DNA from: an uncultured Chthonomonas sp. | GTDB taxonomy: Bacteria > Armatimonadota > Chthonomonadetes > Chthonomonadales > CAJBBX01 | Assembly (NCBI GenBank): GCA_903951425.1 | Contig: CAJBBX010000156.1 | Location: 62,001 to 126,000, forward strand | Direction of reading: 5' to 3' | Length of the DNA: 64,000 nucleotides | Shown: piece after piece, positions 12,272-18,854 of the stretch | How positions within the stretch are numbered: position 1 is the stretch's first letter | How the letters are laid out: the number at the start of each line of letters is the position of its first letter | The notes under the pieces: generated by a model | The model's database searches: none | What the model saw: the letters and a program-made list of their open reading frames with translations, nothing else | Told to the model about the DNA's origin: nothing | Position numbers and translations under genes: made by a program

Positions 12272-13729
12272 ATGATCACTCTTGTCGGGTTGGGGCCGGC
12301 CGGCGCCGGTTCCCTCTCCGTGGCCGCGCGCGATGCACTGCGCGCGGCCGCTCCTTTGTGGTTCCGCACCGGCCGCCATCCCGCCGCCGAAGAGCTGGCC
12401 CGGGAAGGCCTCCGCTTCGAGACCTTCGACGCCCTCTACGAGGCCGGTGAGTCGTTCGCAGAGGTCTACGCCGAGATCGCCCGCCGCGTGCTGGAGGCCG
12501 GCCGCGCCGGCGACGTGGCCTATGCCGTGCCGGGCCACCCGCTGGTGGGCGAGGAGGCTGCGCGGCAGATCCTGGCGGCGGCCCGCGAAGAGGGCCTTCC
12601 GGTCCGTGTGGTCGGCTCCGCCAGCTTCGTCGAGCCCGCCCTGGCCGCCGCCGGGGCCTCGCTGGGCGAGGGGCTCTGCATCATCGACGCGTTGGCCATG
12701 GACCGCCTGCAGCTCCGGACCGACCTCGCCACGCTGATTTACCAGGTCTATGACCGCACGACGGCCTCCGACGTGAAGCTCGCCCTCATGCGCCGCTTCC
12801 CCGATGAGTGGGAGGTCACCGTGGTCCGCGCCGCCGGCGTGGCGGGGCAGGAGAGCGTCGAGTGGTTGCCCCTCTACCGGCTGGACCGCGTCGACCACGA
12901 CCACCTCACCAGTGTCTATGTGCCGCCCTTGCCCGAGGGGCGCCGCGTCACTATGGACGACCTAGTGGCCGTCATGGCCCGCCTCCGCGCCGAGGATGGC
13001 TGCCCCTGGGACCGCGAGCAGGACCACCTCACGCTGCGCCGTTACCTCTTCGAGGAATGCTGCGAGGCCATCGACGCCATCGACGCCGGCGACATGGACG
13101 ACCTCTGCGAGGAGCTGGGCGACATCCTGCTCCAGATCGTCTTCCACGCGCAGATCGAGGACGAAGTAGGGGGCTTCACCACCGACGCCGTGATCGCAGG
13201 CATCGTGGAGAAGCTCATCCGCCGCCATCCCCACGTCTTTGCCGATGCTACCGCAGAGGACCCCGACGCCGTCATTCGCACCTGGGAGCGGATCAAGCAG
13301 GCCGAGCGAGCCGGCGCACCGCCCCAGTCCGTGCTGCACGGAGTGCCGGCCGCCCTGCCGGCCCTCATGCGCGCCATGGCCGTGAGCAGGAAGGCCGTCC
13401 GCGTGGGCTTCGAATGGAACTGCCTCGAAGATGTGCTGGATAAGGTCGAGGAGGAGCTACGCGAGCTTCGCGCGGCCATCGCCGAGGATGACGCCGCCCA
13501 CGTGCGCGCTGAGATCGGCGACCTCCTTTTCGCCATCGTGAACGTCGCCCGTTGGCGCAACGTCGATCCTGAGGAGGCGTTACGGTCCATGCTTGCGCGG
13601 TTCACCGCCCGGTTCGCCTACATCGAGGCAGGGGCCGATGCCCAGGGGCGCGAACTGGAGACCCTAACGCTGGCCGAGATGGACGCCCTCTGGGACGAGG
13701 CCAAGGCCAAGGGGATCGGGGCGTCATAG
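12272..13729 (+). CDS. mazG: Tetrapyrrole-methylase-like / MazG nucleotide pyrophosphohydrolase fusion (YabN type)
   Basis: Two-domain protein of 485 aa, the architecture of Bacillus YabN. Residues 1 to about 215 form an SAM-dependent tetrapyrrole-methylase fold (VGLGPAGAGSLS at the start, later AYAVPGHPLVGE). Residues about 225-485 are MazG, with GCPWDREQ, the metal-binding glutamate helix EECCEAIDAI and EELGDILLQIVFHA, followed by a second MazG-like helical repeat (EIGDLLFAIVNVARW). MazG hydrolyses NTPs, including damaged or signalling nucleotides, to NMP and PPi. The role of the methylase part is unknown in this family. It is tightly packed with neighbours on the same strand. Confidence 0.95.
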   Translation: MITLVGLGPAGAGSLSVAARDALRAAAPLWFRTGRHPAAEELAREGLRFETFDALYEAGESFAEVYAEIARRVLEAGRAGDVAYAVPGHPLVGEEAARQILAAAREEGLPVRVVGSASFVEPALAAAGASLGEGLCIIDALAMDRLQLRTDLATLIYQVYDRTTASDVKLALMRRFPDEWEVTVVRAAGVAGQESVEWLPLYRLDRVDHDHLTSVYVPPLPEGRRVTMDDLVAVMARLRAEDGCPWDREQDHLTLRRYLFEECCEAIDAIDAGDMDDLCEELGDILLQIVFHAQIEDEVGGFTTDAVIAGIVEKLIRRHPHVFADATAEDPDAVIRTWERIKQAERAGAPPQSVLHGVPAALPALMRAMAVSRKAVRVGFEWNCLEDVLDKVEEELRELRAAIAEDDAAHVRAEIGDLLFAIVNVARWRNVDPEEALRSMLARFTARFAYIEAGADAQGRELETLTLAEMDALWDEAKAKGIGAS

Positions 13730-13742
13730 GAGGAAGCTGCGC

Positions 13743-14612
13743 ATGATCCGAAGTCTCCTCAGTCTCGCCGCCTGCCTCCCCGCGTTGGGCGTCGGCGCGC
13801 AGACGGCTCCCGAGCCGCCGCCCGAGCCGCTCTCCGGCGTCTCCATCGGCGCGTGGCATCCCTGCTTCGTGGGCGTCGATCGCACCCCGGTCAGCTGCAC
13901 CGGGCCTGTCGCCATGCAGGGCCAGGCGCTCCGCATCGACCTCCGGGCCAAGGGCCTCCGCTTCATGGCCACACCGCCCGACCGCCGAGGCAGGAAGGAG
14001 GTCCGGGGCCTCCGCACCAGCTCCTTCCTGGCCCGCTACCAGATGCAGGGGGCCATCAACGCGGCGCCCTTCGGTCCCGTGGTCAACGATGAGGGCAAGG
14101 ATCAGGACGTCGTGGGTCTCATGGTCTCCAACAGCCGCCTCGTGTCGAAGCCCGAGGCGAGCCCCGCCCTCCTGCTCACCGGCCGCAACAAGGCCTGCAT
14201 CGCCGAGGCGCCGTTCATCCTGCGCGGCGTGCGGAACGCCGTGGCGGGCTTCGGCCTGGTGCTGAAGGCGGGCGTCAACGTGGGCGCCGGCGGCGTCCGG
14301 CATCCGCGCACCGCCGCCGGCATCAGCCCCGACGGCCGAACCCTCTACCTGTTGGCCCTGGACGGTCGCCAAACCGGCTACAGCGTCGGCGCCACCACGC
14401 AGGAGGTGGGCCAGTGGCTGGCGCTCCTCGGCGCCTCCGAGGGGATCAACCTTGACGGCGGCGGCACCACGGCCATGGTGATCCAGGGCCCCGACGGTAG
14501 GCCGCAGGTGCTCAATCGGCCCATCCATGGCGGCATTCCAGGGACCGAGCGCGTTTCGGCAAGCCACCTCGGGTTCCGCGCCCGGCGTCTGCGGGCAAGC
14601 CGAACGCCCTGA
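13743..14612 (+). CDS. Exported phosphodiester glycosidase family protein (NAGPA/DUF2233-like)
   Basis: Secreted protein of 289 aa: signal peptide at residues 1-20 (LLSLAACLPALGVGA), then a single domain. The C-terminal half has the family signature: HPRTAAGIS followed by TLYLLALDGRQ, GYSVGATTQEVGQWL and INLDGGGTTAMV, and a late NRPIHGG. In characterised members this fold uncovers or cleaves GlcNAc-1-phosphodiester bonds, and bacterial relatives often act on cell-wall glycopolymers. The substrate here is unknown. The ATG at 13743 follows AGGAGGAAG. It lies between mazG and the glycyl-radical-like gene, each separated by fewer than 20 bases. Confidence 0.88.
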   Translation: MIRSLLSLAACLPALGVGAQTAPEPPPEPLSGVSIGAWHPCFVGVDRTPVSCTGPVAMQGQALRIDLRAKGLRFMATPPDRRGRKEVRGLRTSSFLARYQMQGAINAAPFGPVVNDEGKDQDVVGLMVSNSRLVSKPEASPALLLTGRNKACIAEAPFILRGVRNAVAGFGLVLKAGVNVGAGGVRHPRTAAGISPDGRTLYLLALDGRQTGYSVGATTQEVGQWLALLGASEGINLDGGGTTAMVIQGPDGRPQVLNRPIHGGIPGTERVSASHLGFRARRLRASRTP

Positions 14613-14626
14613 TCAGGAGGGGAACC

Positions 14627-16780
14627 ATGTCCGAACTAAAGGTGCGCCCATACGCCGACTGGATCGAGGCCCTGCGCCTCACCAAGGCCGAACACACCAG
14701 CTCCAAGCTGGCCCGCGACGGCTACCACGATGTCGACGACCACGGTTGCATCCCGTGGCCGGAGCCGATCCCGTTCGGGCGCGAGGTGAGCCATCCGGAC
14801 GGCGGCACCTACGGTTTCGGGGCCTGTGGGCGCAGCCTTGGCGCCTGGCTCGCCGGCCATCCGGTCTACATCCACCCGCTCAGCGCCGTGGCGGGCGCCT
14901 GGACCACCCATCCACCCGGCGTCGGCGGATGGCGGCCGGAGGACCGCGCCCACCACCTATCGGAGCGCCAGGCCAAGTACAACATCATCCAGCCCGGCAT
15001 CGGCGCGATGAACCATAGCGGCCCGGACATGCGCATCGGCCTTGACCTGGGCTGGCCCGGCCTGCTGGCCAAGCTGCGCCGCTACCGCGCCGTCAACAAC
15101 CCCGCCGATGCGTCGTTCTACGACGGCGAGGAGGCCGTGGTCGAGGGCGCGCTGGCCTGGATCGCCCGCCACGTCACCGAGGCACGCGCCATGGCCGCCG
15201 CCCAGCCGGATCCCGCCGCCGCCGCGAACCTGCACGAGATCGCCGACATGAACGAGCGGCTCTGCGCCGGTCCGCCGGCCACCCTCCGCGAGGCCTGCCA
15301 GTTCCTGGCCTGGTTCCAGGCCATCGATCGCATGTGGTTCTGCGGCGGCGCCCTCAGCCAGCTGGACGAGCTGCTCCGCCCCTACTACGAGGCCGACAGG
15401 GCCGTCGGGCGCACGAGTCCCGAGCACGCCATCTGGTGCTTCGCGGCGCTCTTCTTCAACGACACGCACTACTCGCAGATCGGCGGTCCGCATCCCATCG
15501 ACGGCCACGACGTGACCAGCGAGGTCTCCTTCCTGCTCCTCGAGGCCGCCCACCGCCTCCGCATCCCCAGCAACCTCGGCGTGCGCGTGCATGCGGGGCT
15601 GGACCCCGCCCTCCTGCGCCGATCCGTGGAGCAGAACTTTGAGGCCGGCACGGGCGCCTGCTACCCCTGTTCCGACGGCCTTGACCCAGGCTACGCCCGC
15701 AACGGCGTACCCGTGGCGCTGGCTCGCATGCGCGCCAAGGTCGGCTGCAACTGGACCGCCTTGCCCGGCATCGAGTACTGCCTGCAGGATATCTGCCGCA
15801 TCTGCCTCGTCTCGCCCCTCCTGCACGCCATGGACGACCTCCGCGTCGATCCTGCGCCGAGCATGGAGCGCCTCTGGGTCTCCTACGACGGTCACCTGGC
15901 GGCCGCAGTGGAGACCCTCAAGGAGGGGCTCGACTGGCACATGGCGCACCACGCCGCCAACTGCCCGGAACTGGTGCTGAACCTGTTCGCCCACGGCCCC
16001 GTGGAGCGCGGCCTCGATATGGCCGGCGGCGGCGTGGACATCTACCGCCTGACCACCGACGGCGTGGGCCTCGCCACCGTAGCCGACTCGCTGGCCGCAG
16101 TGGAGCGCCGCGTCTTCAACGAGGGGCGCATCGGTTGGCAGTATCTGATCGAGGCGCTGGACGCCGACTTCGAGGGCTTCGAGCACATCCACGCCCTGCT
16201 GCGCGGCGGCCCCCGCTACGGCGCGGGCGGCACCCGGGCCGACGAGTGGGCGGCGCGGGTCTCGGCGCTCTTCACCAAGCTGGTCCGCGAGACCCCCACA
16301 CCCGGCGGGTACACCGTCCTGCCCGGCCTCTTCTCGCATGGCGTCGTGCGCGAGTTGGGCCGGAACTTGGGTGCCACGCCCAACGGTCGCCGCGCCGGCG
16401 GGCCCATCTCGCACAGCGCCGACCCGGATCCCGGCTTCATGGCCGGTGGCGCCGCTCCCACGGCCAAGGCGGCCGCGGTGGCTCTGGTCCAGCCCGGCTG
16501 GGGCAACACCACGCCGCTCCAGCTCGACGTGGATCTGGGCACAGCGCGTGCAGCCGGGGGCATCGAGGCCGTGGAGGCTCTCATCCGAGCCCACAACCAG
16601 ATGGGTGGAACGCTCGTGAACCTCAATGTGCTAGCCAAGGAGCAGTTGCTGGCCGCCCACGCCGACCCGAGCCTCTACCCGGACCTCGTCGTGCGCGTCA
16701 CCGGATACAGCGCCTACTTCCGCTCGCTGTCGCCCGAGTACCGGCAGCAGGTGGTGGATCGCATCCTGGCGGAGGCTTAG
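14627..16780 (+). CDS. Glycyl-radical enzyme family protein with atypical active-site cysteine loop
   Basis: Protein of 717 aa related to pyruvate formate-lyase-type glycyl-radical enzymes. The C-terminal radical loop is present (RVTGYSAYF, radical Gly693), preceded by the family's [13 protein letters not shown] and [12 protein letters not shown] segments. The cysteine in the expected place is Cys374 in [10 protein letters not shown], 319 residues before the glycine. The surrounding motif is neither the GCxE of the dehydratase/lyase branch nor the CC of pyruvate formate-lyase: the Glu place is Trp376. Cys345 and Cys348 (CYPC) are further candidates. No radical-SAM activating enzyme gene is in the window. 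Reaction unknown. The ATG follows AGGAGGGG. Confidence 0.82.

Positions 16781-16805: not shown

Positions 16806-18854
<2,049 letters not shown>

Follow-up and report, generated by a model that had tools for sequence, protein, structure and literature searches.

A clade of glycyl-radical enzymes with tryptophan at the position of the eliminase glutamate

One gene in the 64,000-nucleotide stretch of DNA from an uncultured Chthonomonas sp. that was analysed here (the window) raises the question of what a glycyl-radical enzyme (GRE) does when its cysteine loop carries neither the glutamate of the eliminases nor the double cysteine of pyruvate formate-lyase. The GRE eliminases (glycerol dehydratase (GDH), PDH, CutC, HypD, and IslA) are described as having in common a CXE motif, the Glu of which contacts a hydroxyl group of the substrate (PMC7077986, PMC8473560). 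This motif is absent from the window protein, as is the double Cys of pyruvate formate-lyase, the window protein having a single Cys. The initial annotation had reported a GCNW loop with the same two absences alongside the glycine loop RVTGYSAYF; translation of the gene returns both loops as described, and the alignment agrees on what the cysteine loop lacks. A sequencing error as the source of this loop is ruled out, as the same loop recurs across independent genomes. The features of the locus are collected in Table 1.

Table 1. Positions of the gene, its active-site loops, its neighbours, and the activase of the same genome (window numbering unless a contig is given).
Feature	Position	Strand	Basis or remark
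GRE gene, GC[NHQ]W clade, 717 aa	14627..16780	+	ORF, Pfam, and tree
Cys loop R369-D388: catalytic C374, W376 (Cys+2), invariant E383 (Cys+9), D388 (Cys+14)	15731..15790	+	alignment
H130, aligned with GDH H164; kept in 66/66 family rows with a letter	15014..15016	+	alignment
Gly loop RVTGYSAYF, radical glycine G693; T692 class-specific	16694..16720	+	alignment
Ribosome-binding site AGGAGG, 6 bases 5' of ATG	14615..14620	+	sequence
NAGPA phosphodiester glycosidase (PF09992, 1.2e-24)	13743..14612	+	14 bases upstream of GRE
mazG-like gene	12272..13729	+	named by eye; same strand as GRE
uvrB-like gene	16806..18854	+	named by eye; 25 bases downstream of GRE
TIGR02494 activase	G000:C145:26418-27257 (L032:9233-10306)		CX3CX2C and two ferredoxin-like cysteine clusters

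The 717-residue frame is free of stops, and its product matches the Pfam families PFL-like (2.7e-67, 228.3 bits against a cut-off of 24.3) and Gly_radical (4.1e-11, 43.8 bits against a cut-off of 22.2). The protein thus combines a PFL-like barrel and a Gly_radical domain with a retained catalytic Cys and radical Gly, and it belongs to the GRE superfamily; it is almost certainly a genuine, oxygen-sensitive radical enzyme. No NCBIfam cut-off was passed by the window protein, and every equivalog that it hit scored far below its own cut-off, the best match being TIGR01774 with a score of 204 against a cut-off of 678. The X-succinate synthases (BssA, MasD) gave weak sequence matches (9o8u, 2.7e-26; 4pkc, 4.9e-24), and the tree described below contains neither. 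An AlphaFold model built from 11 sequences has a mean pLDDT of 62.9, with values below 50 in the active site; a reading of the pocket from structure was dropped for this reason, and the pocket residues discussed below rest on the sequence alignment alone. Viral contigs were searched as a source for a deeper alignment, and no sequences were found in them. All 50 of the Foldseek matches listed for the model are GREs with TM ~0.5, and given this score the result was used only as confirmation of the superfamily.

The Trp at Cys+2 is found in all 72 rows collected from Armatimonadota, Chloroflexota, Latescibacterota, Clostridia, and Bacteroidota (71 distinct, since L017 and L261 are one gene), and the loop reads CHW in 38, CNW in 32, and CQW in 2. 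The same column holds Glu in eight of nine reference GREs, the other, PflB, having Ser, and among the paralogues of the window genome it holds Glu in seven of eight and Gln in one. Because the loop is invariant across phyla, this pattern is far beyond chance. Left out of the count are L141 (a GCNR loop, clustered by BLAST and outside the clade in the tree), the second rows of L252, L239, and L251, which have other Cys loops, two pieces in L244, and the N-terminal fragment in L143, which holds no loop. The loop GCNWTALPG itself also occurs in contigs of Chloroflexi, Latescibacterota, and Clostridia (58-68% identity to the window protein) and in relatives of 95% identity in other Armatimonadota, and remoter members have GCHW or GCNW followed by PGxE. 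C374, E383, and D388 are each kept in 68/68 core rows, the radical G693 is kept in every Gly loop aligned, and the near-invariant residues of the clade are E383, Y282, H423, D478, H596, Q632, N665, and T692. GREs without Glu at Cys+2 were also seen with other loops, namely GCNR in G047 (L141:6884-9070) and GCMQ in the window genome (G000:C133, L006).

In an LG+G4 tree of 65 rows, the 34 GC[NH]W rows are united in a single clade (support 100) whose stem measures 1.04 changes per column; all 12 references, a set without BssA, HPAD, and IslA, lie outside it. Among the references used, this clade has no characterised member, and the window gene does not fall inside a characterised clade with a GCNW loop, the placement that the initial annotation had named as refuting its proposal. 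The GCQW row L150 is the sister of the GC[NH]W clade with a support of 99; as the tree was made by a short, quick method with a long-branch warning that includes L150, this position is less certain than the clade itself. L150 and L263 are GCQW enzymes related to the clade and weakly similar to the window protein, and they are possibly a further subclass. A search of the open PMC literature returned no title on a GCxW loop or clade; subscription papers and preprints lay outside this search, and absence from print is not claimed. By profile search at E 1e-100, carriers of the family make up 13 of 291 Armatimonadota genomes; of 391 genomes sampled from the class that contains the clostridial Oscillospiraceae genome G047, 29 are carriers, as are 7 of the 64 from the phylum to which the Latescibacterota genome G042 belongs and 2 of 400 sampled from that of the Chloroflexi genome G041. 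Additionally, two marine Bacteroidota plasmid records carry a family member with 40% identity.

No activase was found in the window. Together with the unusual loop, this is all that speaks for a non-radical relative in which radical chemistry has been lost, one of the two readings first offered for this gene. The retention of the catalytic Cys and the radical Gly throughout the clade speaks against this reading, as does the distribution of activases. A GRE-activase gene is found in the same directon in 42 of the 72 rows by an automatic rule, and four more activases adjoin the GRE (L132, L251, L256, and L260). Furthermore, the TIGR02494 profile matches in 55 of the 56 carrier genomes tested, which comprise a set of 14, a set of 13 Armatimonadota (five of which overlap with the 14), and 34 others, with matches in 14/14, 13/13, and 33/34, respectively. 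In the exception, G817, the contig ends within an activase ORF that directly follows the GRE, such that 56/56 carriers have an activase. Among the Armatimonadota, TIGR02494 is matched in 13/13 carriers versus 75/278 non-carriers (Fisher p 9e-8), a figure weakened by relatedness, which the test ignores, and by other activase-needing GREs in the carriers. G025 and G049 each contain a single Gly_radical domain and a single TIGR02494 activase, and the two are adjacent. Because the Cys and Gly are kept, an activase lies in the directon of most relatives, and all carriers tested have an activase, the enzymes of this clade very probably work by radical chemistry, and a non-radical relative is extremely improbable. 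A lack of activases in all carriers, which was suggested at the outset as an argument against radical chemistry, is not what these genomes contain.

The genome of the window (G000) encodes nine GREs and has a single TIGR02494 match over the cut-off, located on contig C145, whereas the window lies on C156; the earlier statement that there is no radical-SAM activating enzyme nearby therefore holds. PF13353 also matches four other places in this genome, one of them a short radical-SAM-like ORF, which leaves some room for other activating enzymes. The C145 activase groups with the activase of a same-family genome without the GRE, and it lies outside the 13-row set into which 12 of 15 GCxW-linked activases fall; as it falls apart from these, a dedicated activase partner in the window genome is not claimed. 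Either a shared activase acts on the window GRE in trans or the enzyme is idle, and activation in trans would be the expected case. The nine GREs of this genome appear to share one TIGR02494 activase; none of them was seen beside it, and activases are usually described as dedicated (PMC8473560). One of the nine, G000:C48 (L007), is a trans-4-hydroxyproline dehydratase by cut-off (1265 versus 1100 bits) and has no neighbouring activase. The activase and the GRE are on different contigs in 12 of the 13 Armatimonadota carriers.

An idle enzyme would mean that the window copy was acquired without its own activase and is dormant in this genome. The missing adjacent activase and the separate lineage of the sole TIGR02494 activase are consistent with this possibility, as is the distribution of the gene near the window genome: the window genus has the GRE, and all nine same-family genomes of other genera are without it at E 1e-60, which suggests a horizontal, recent arrival. 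Dormancy is nevertheless quite improbable, as comparison among three species of the genus shows purifying selection on the gene. The dN/dS of the window GRE is 0.074 against G001 and 0.065 and 0.088 against two pieces in G002, similar to that of the HypD of this genome (0.068), which argues that the window GRE is used. Additionally, the active-site loops are unchanged, the ribosome-binding site is strong, and the gene is kept in 12 of the 13 Armatimonadota carriers though the activase is on another contig.

Comparison with the closest known systems offers insight into what such an enzyme may do. The best PDB profile match of the window protein is the B12-independent GDH (1r8w, 1r9d; 2.6e-71), which is also its nearest solved structure by sequence. 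The positions of GDH C433, H164, D447, and G763 are conserved in the window protein, but GDH E435 is replaced by W376, GDH H281 and S282 align to a gap, T692 precedes the radical Gly, and the window protein belongs to a separate clade. The side chains of H164 and D447 are presumably among those lining the GDH pocket. The second profile match is PflD of E. coli (8yjo, 3.1e-71), which is also the best Foldseek match among those listed; the title of a related PDB entry names 1,5-anhydromannitol-6-phosphate. The Cys loops of PflD and the window protein are similar (VGCVELSIPGRTYGLHD is one of the two loops compared), but PflD retains the CXE Glu and sits in a separate, well-supported clade, and the AlphaFold model is too poor for fold details to be compared. 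The trans-4-hydroxy-L-proline dehydratase HypD is also a GRE but has the CXE motif, and the window protein scores 138 against the HypD cut-off of 1100. Pyruvate formate-lyase (PflB) shares the Gly_radical domain and the lack of Glu at Cys+2 with the window protein, but it has the double Cys motif and is distant in the tree, and the window protein scores 52.7 against the PflB cut-off of 994.2.

The best explanation of these findings, with a probability of roughly 0.6, is a working GRE of a distinct clade, marked by G-C-[NHQ]-W with PG-x-E later in the Cys loop, that breaks a C-O bond of a sugar or cyclic polyol by radical chemistry although the CXE Glu is missing. First, a radical-SAM activase would place the radical on G693; this activase would be the product of the same-directon gene in most relatives, and in the window genome it is most likely the unlinked C145 enzyme. 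Next, the radical would pass from G693 to C374, and the resulting thiyl radical would take a hydrogen from a substrate of carbohydrate origin, a sugar or cyclic polyol being the probable one. Finally, a C-O bond would be broken, as in the dehydratase-type GREs. With a Trp in place of the Glu, acid/base catalysis would have to come from other groups, and the candidates among the invariant side chains are E383, D388 (GDH D447), H130 (GDH H164), Y282, and H596.

Of these candidates, E383 could also be read in a more conventional way. Its column holds Glu in all clade rows with the loop and in 0/14 comparison GREs, and it may be that E383 at Cys+9 spatially replaces the Cys+2 Glu in an ordinary diol dehydration of a small substrate, such as glycerol or propanediol, with D388 and H130 serving as matches to GDH. 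Such a relocated base is improbable, as neither microcompartment nor 1,3-propanediol genes were noticed in the neighbourhoods read, the GDH side chains H281 and S282 align to a gap, and the neighbours are sugar-type instead.

The neighbours of the window gene had been described as housekeeping genes, which is mostly correct (MazG, UvrB, RuvX, and AroE by eye) but passes over the NAGPA gene immediately upstream on the same strand. Across the family, Gfo/Idh/MocA genes account for 31 of 213 genes in GRE directons versus 13 of the 526 genes of these loci that lie outside the directons (p 4e-9 in a test that ignores relatedness), and they occur in the directon of only 16 of the 72 rows. The clostridial operons combine the GRE and activase with two or three Gfo/Idh/MocA genes and a xylose-isomerase-like TIM barrel, the Chloroflexi loci contain ThuA, GH32, and GH29, and the Flammeovirga and Persicobacter loci are annotated with GH130, GH47, a cellulase-family hydrolase, a sulfatase, and Sus transport genes. 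Further sugar-related neighbours across the family include ManA-like, sulfatase, and FGGY kinase genes. These neighbourhoods point to carbohydrates. As the neighbours differ between phyla, with NAGPA being the only sugar-like neighbour in the window lineage, one common substrate is not established, and in an NCBIfam scan of the neighbours none passed a curated cut-off naming a substrate. Inositol was considered due to the recurring MocA dehydrogenases and TIM-barrel isomerases and was set aside, since the NCBIfam models for inositol gave no neighbour a score above cut-off. URO-D methyltransferase-like or B12-binding corrinoid proteins are found near L139, L231, L242, L251, and L252; a coupling to corrinoid or URO-D proteins was rejected, as their presence near several loci is inconsistent. 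In two marine Bacteroidota, a conserved small protein that is cupin-like by eye lies directly 3' of the GRE (L102:17161-17571, L103:17145-17564), and a Pfam scan of the L102 protein gave no match.

Some of these neighbours are also consistent with a radical enzyme that does not eliminate water. It could act as a C-C lyase, as a decarboxylase, as an epimerase, or as a radical isomerase, with Trp376 stacking on the substrate and a base at Cys+2 unneeded. Epimerase-like, isomerase-like, and cupin-like genes are all present near members of the family, PFL, a C-C lyase, is likewise without the Glu, and the CXE motif, described as conserved in GRE eliminases (PMC7077986, PMC8473560), is absent in 72/72 rows. 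However, the nearest enzymes in profile and fold are the C-O lyases GDH and PflD, the GDH-like H130 and D388 are retained, and genes for a CoA or thiol partner were not noticed when the neighbourhoods were read through. Chemistry of this kind is regarded as unlikely, though less so than a relocated base.

The still tentative proposal of a new reaction class is strengthened by the separate clade without characterised references, by NCBIfam scores far below the cut-offs, and by the universal Trp at Cys+2. The boldest reading, put at somewhat under even odds, makes the GC[NHQ]W clade a separate class of GRE reaction in catabolic operons for sugars and polyols, wherein ring polyols or intact sugars would be cleaved or rearranged by the thiyl radical without the CXE base, the Trp at Cys+2 would stack on the substrate, and E383, H596, and Y282 would supply the acid/base groups. 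The enzyme is of a known kind, and it is classed as a variant, not as a system new in category; there is a fair chance that its chemistry is new. Some of the most difficult reactions of anaerobic metabolism are performed by GREs, and the assignment of further clades has brought new chemistry to light, as exemplified by isethionate sulfite-lyase (PMC6453916). Because this clade breaks the loop motif of the eliminases, its mechanism would test the need for the Cys+2 Glu in radical C-O cleavage, and its substrate can be searched for through the operons in which the enzyme is paired with an activase and with Gfo/Idh/MocA dehydrogenases.
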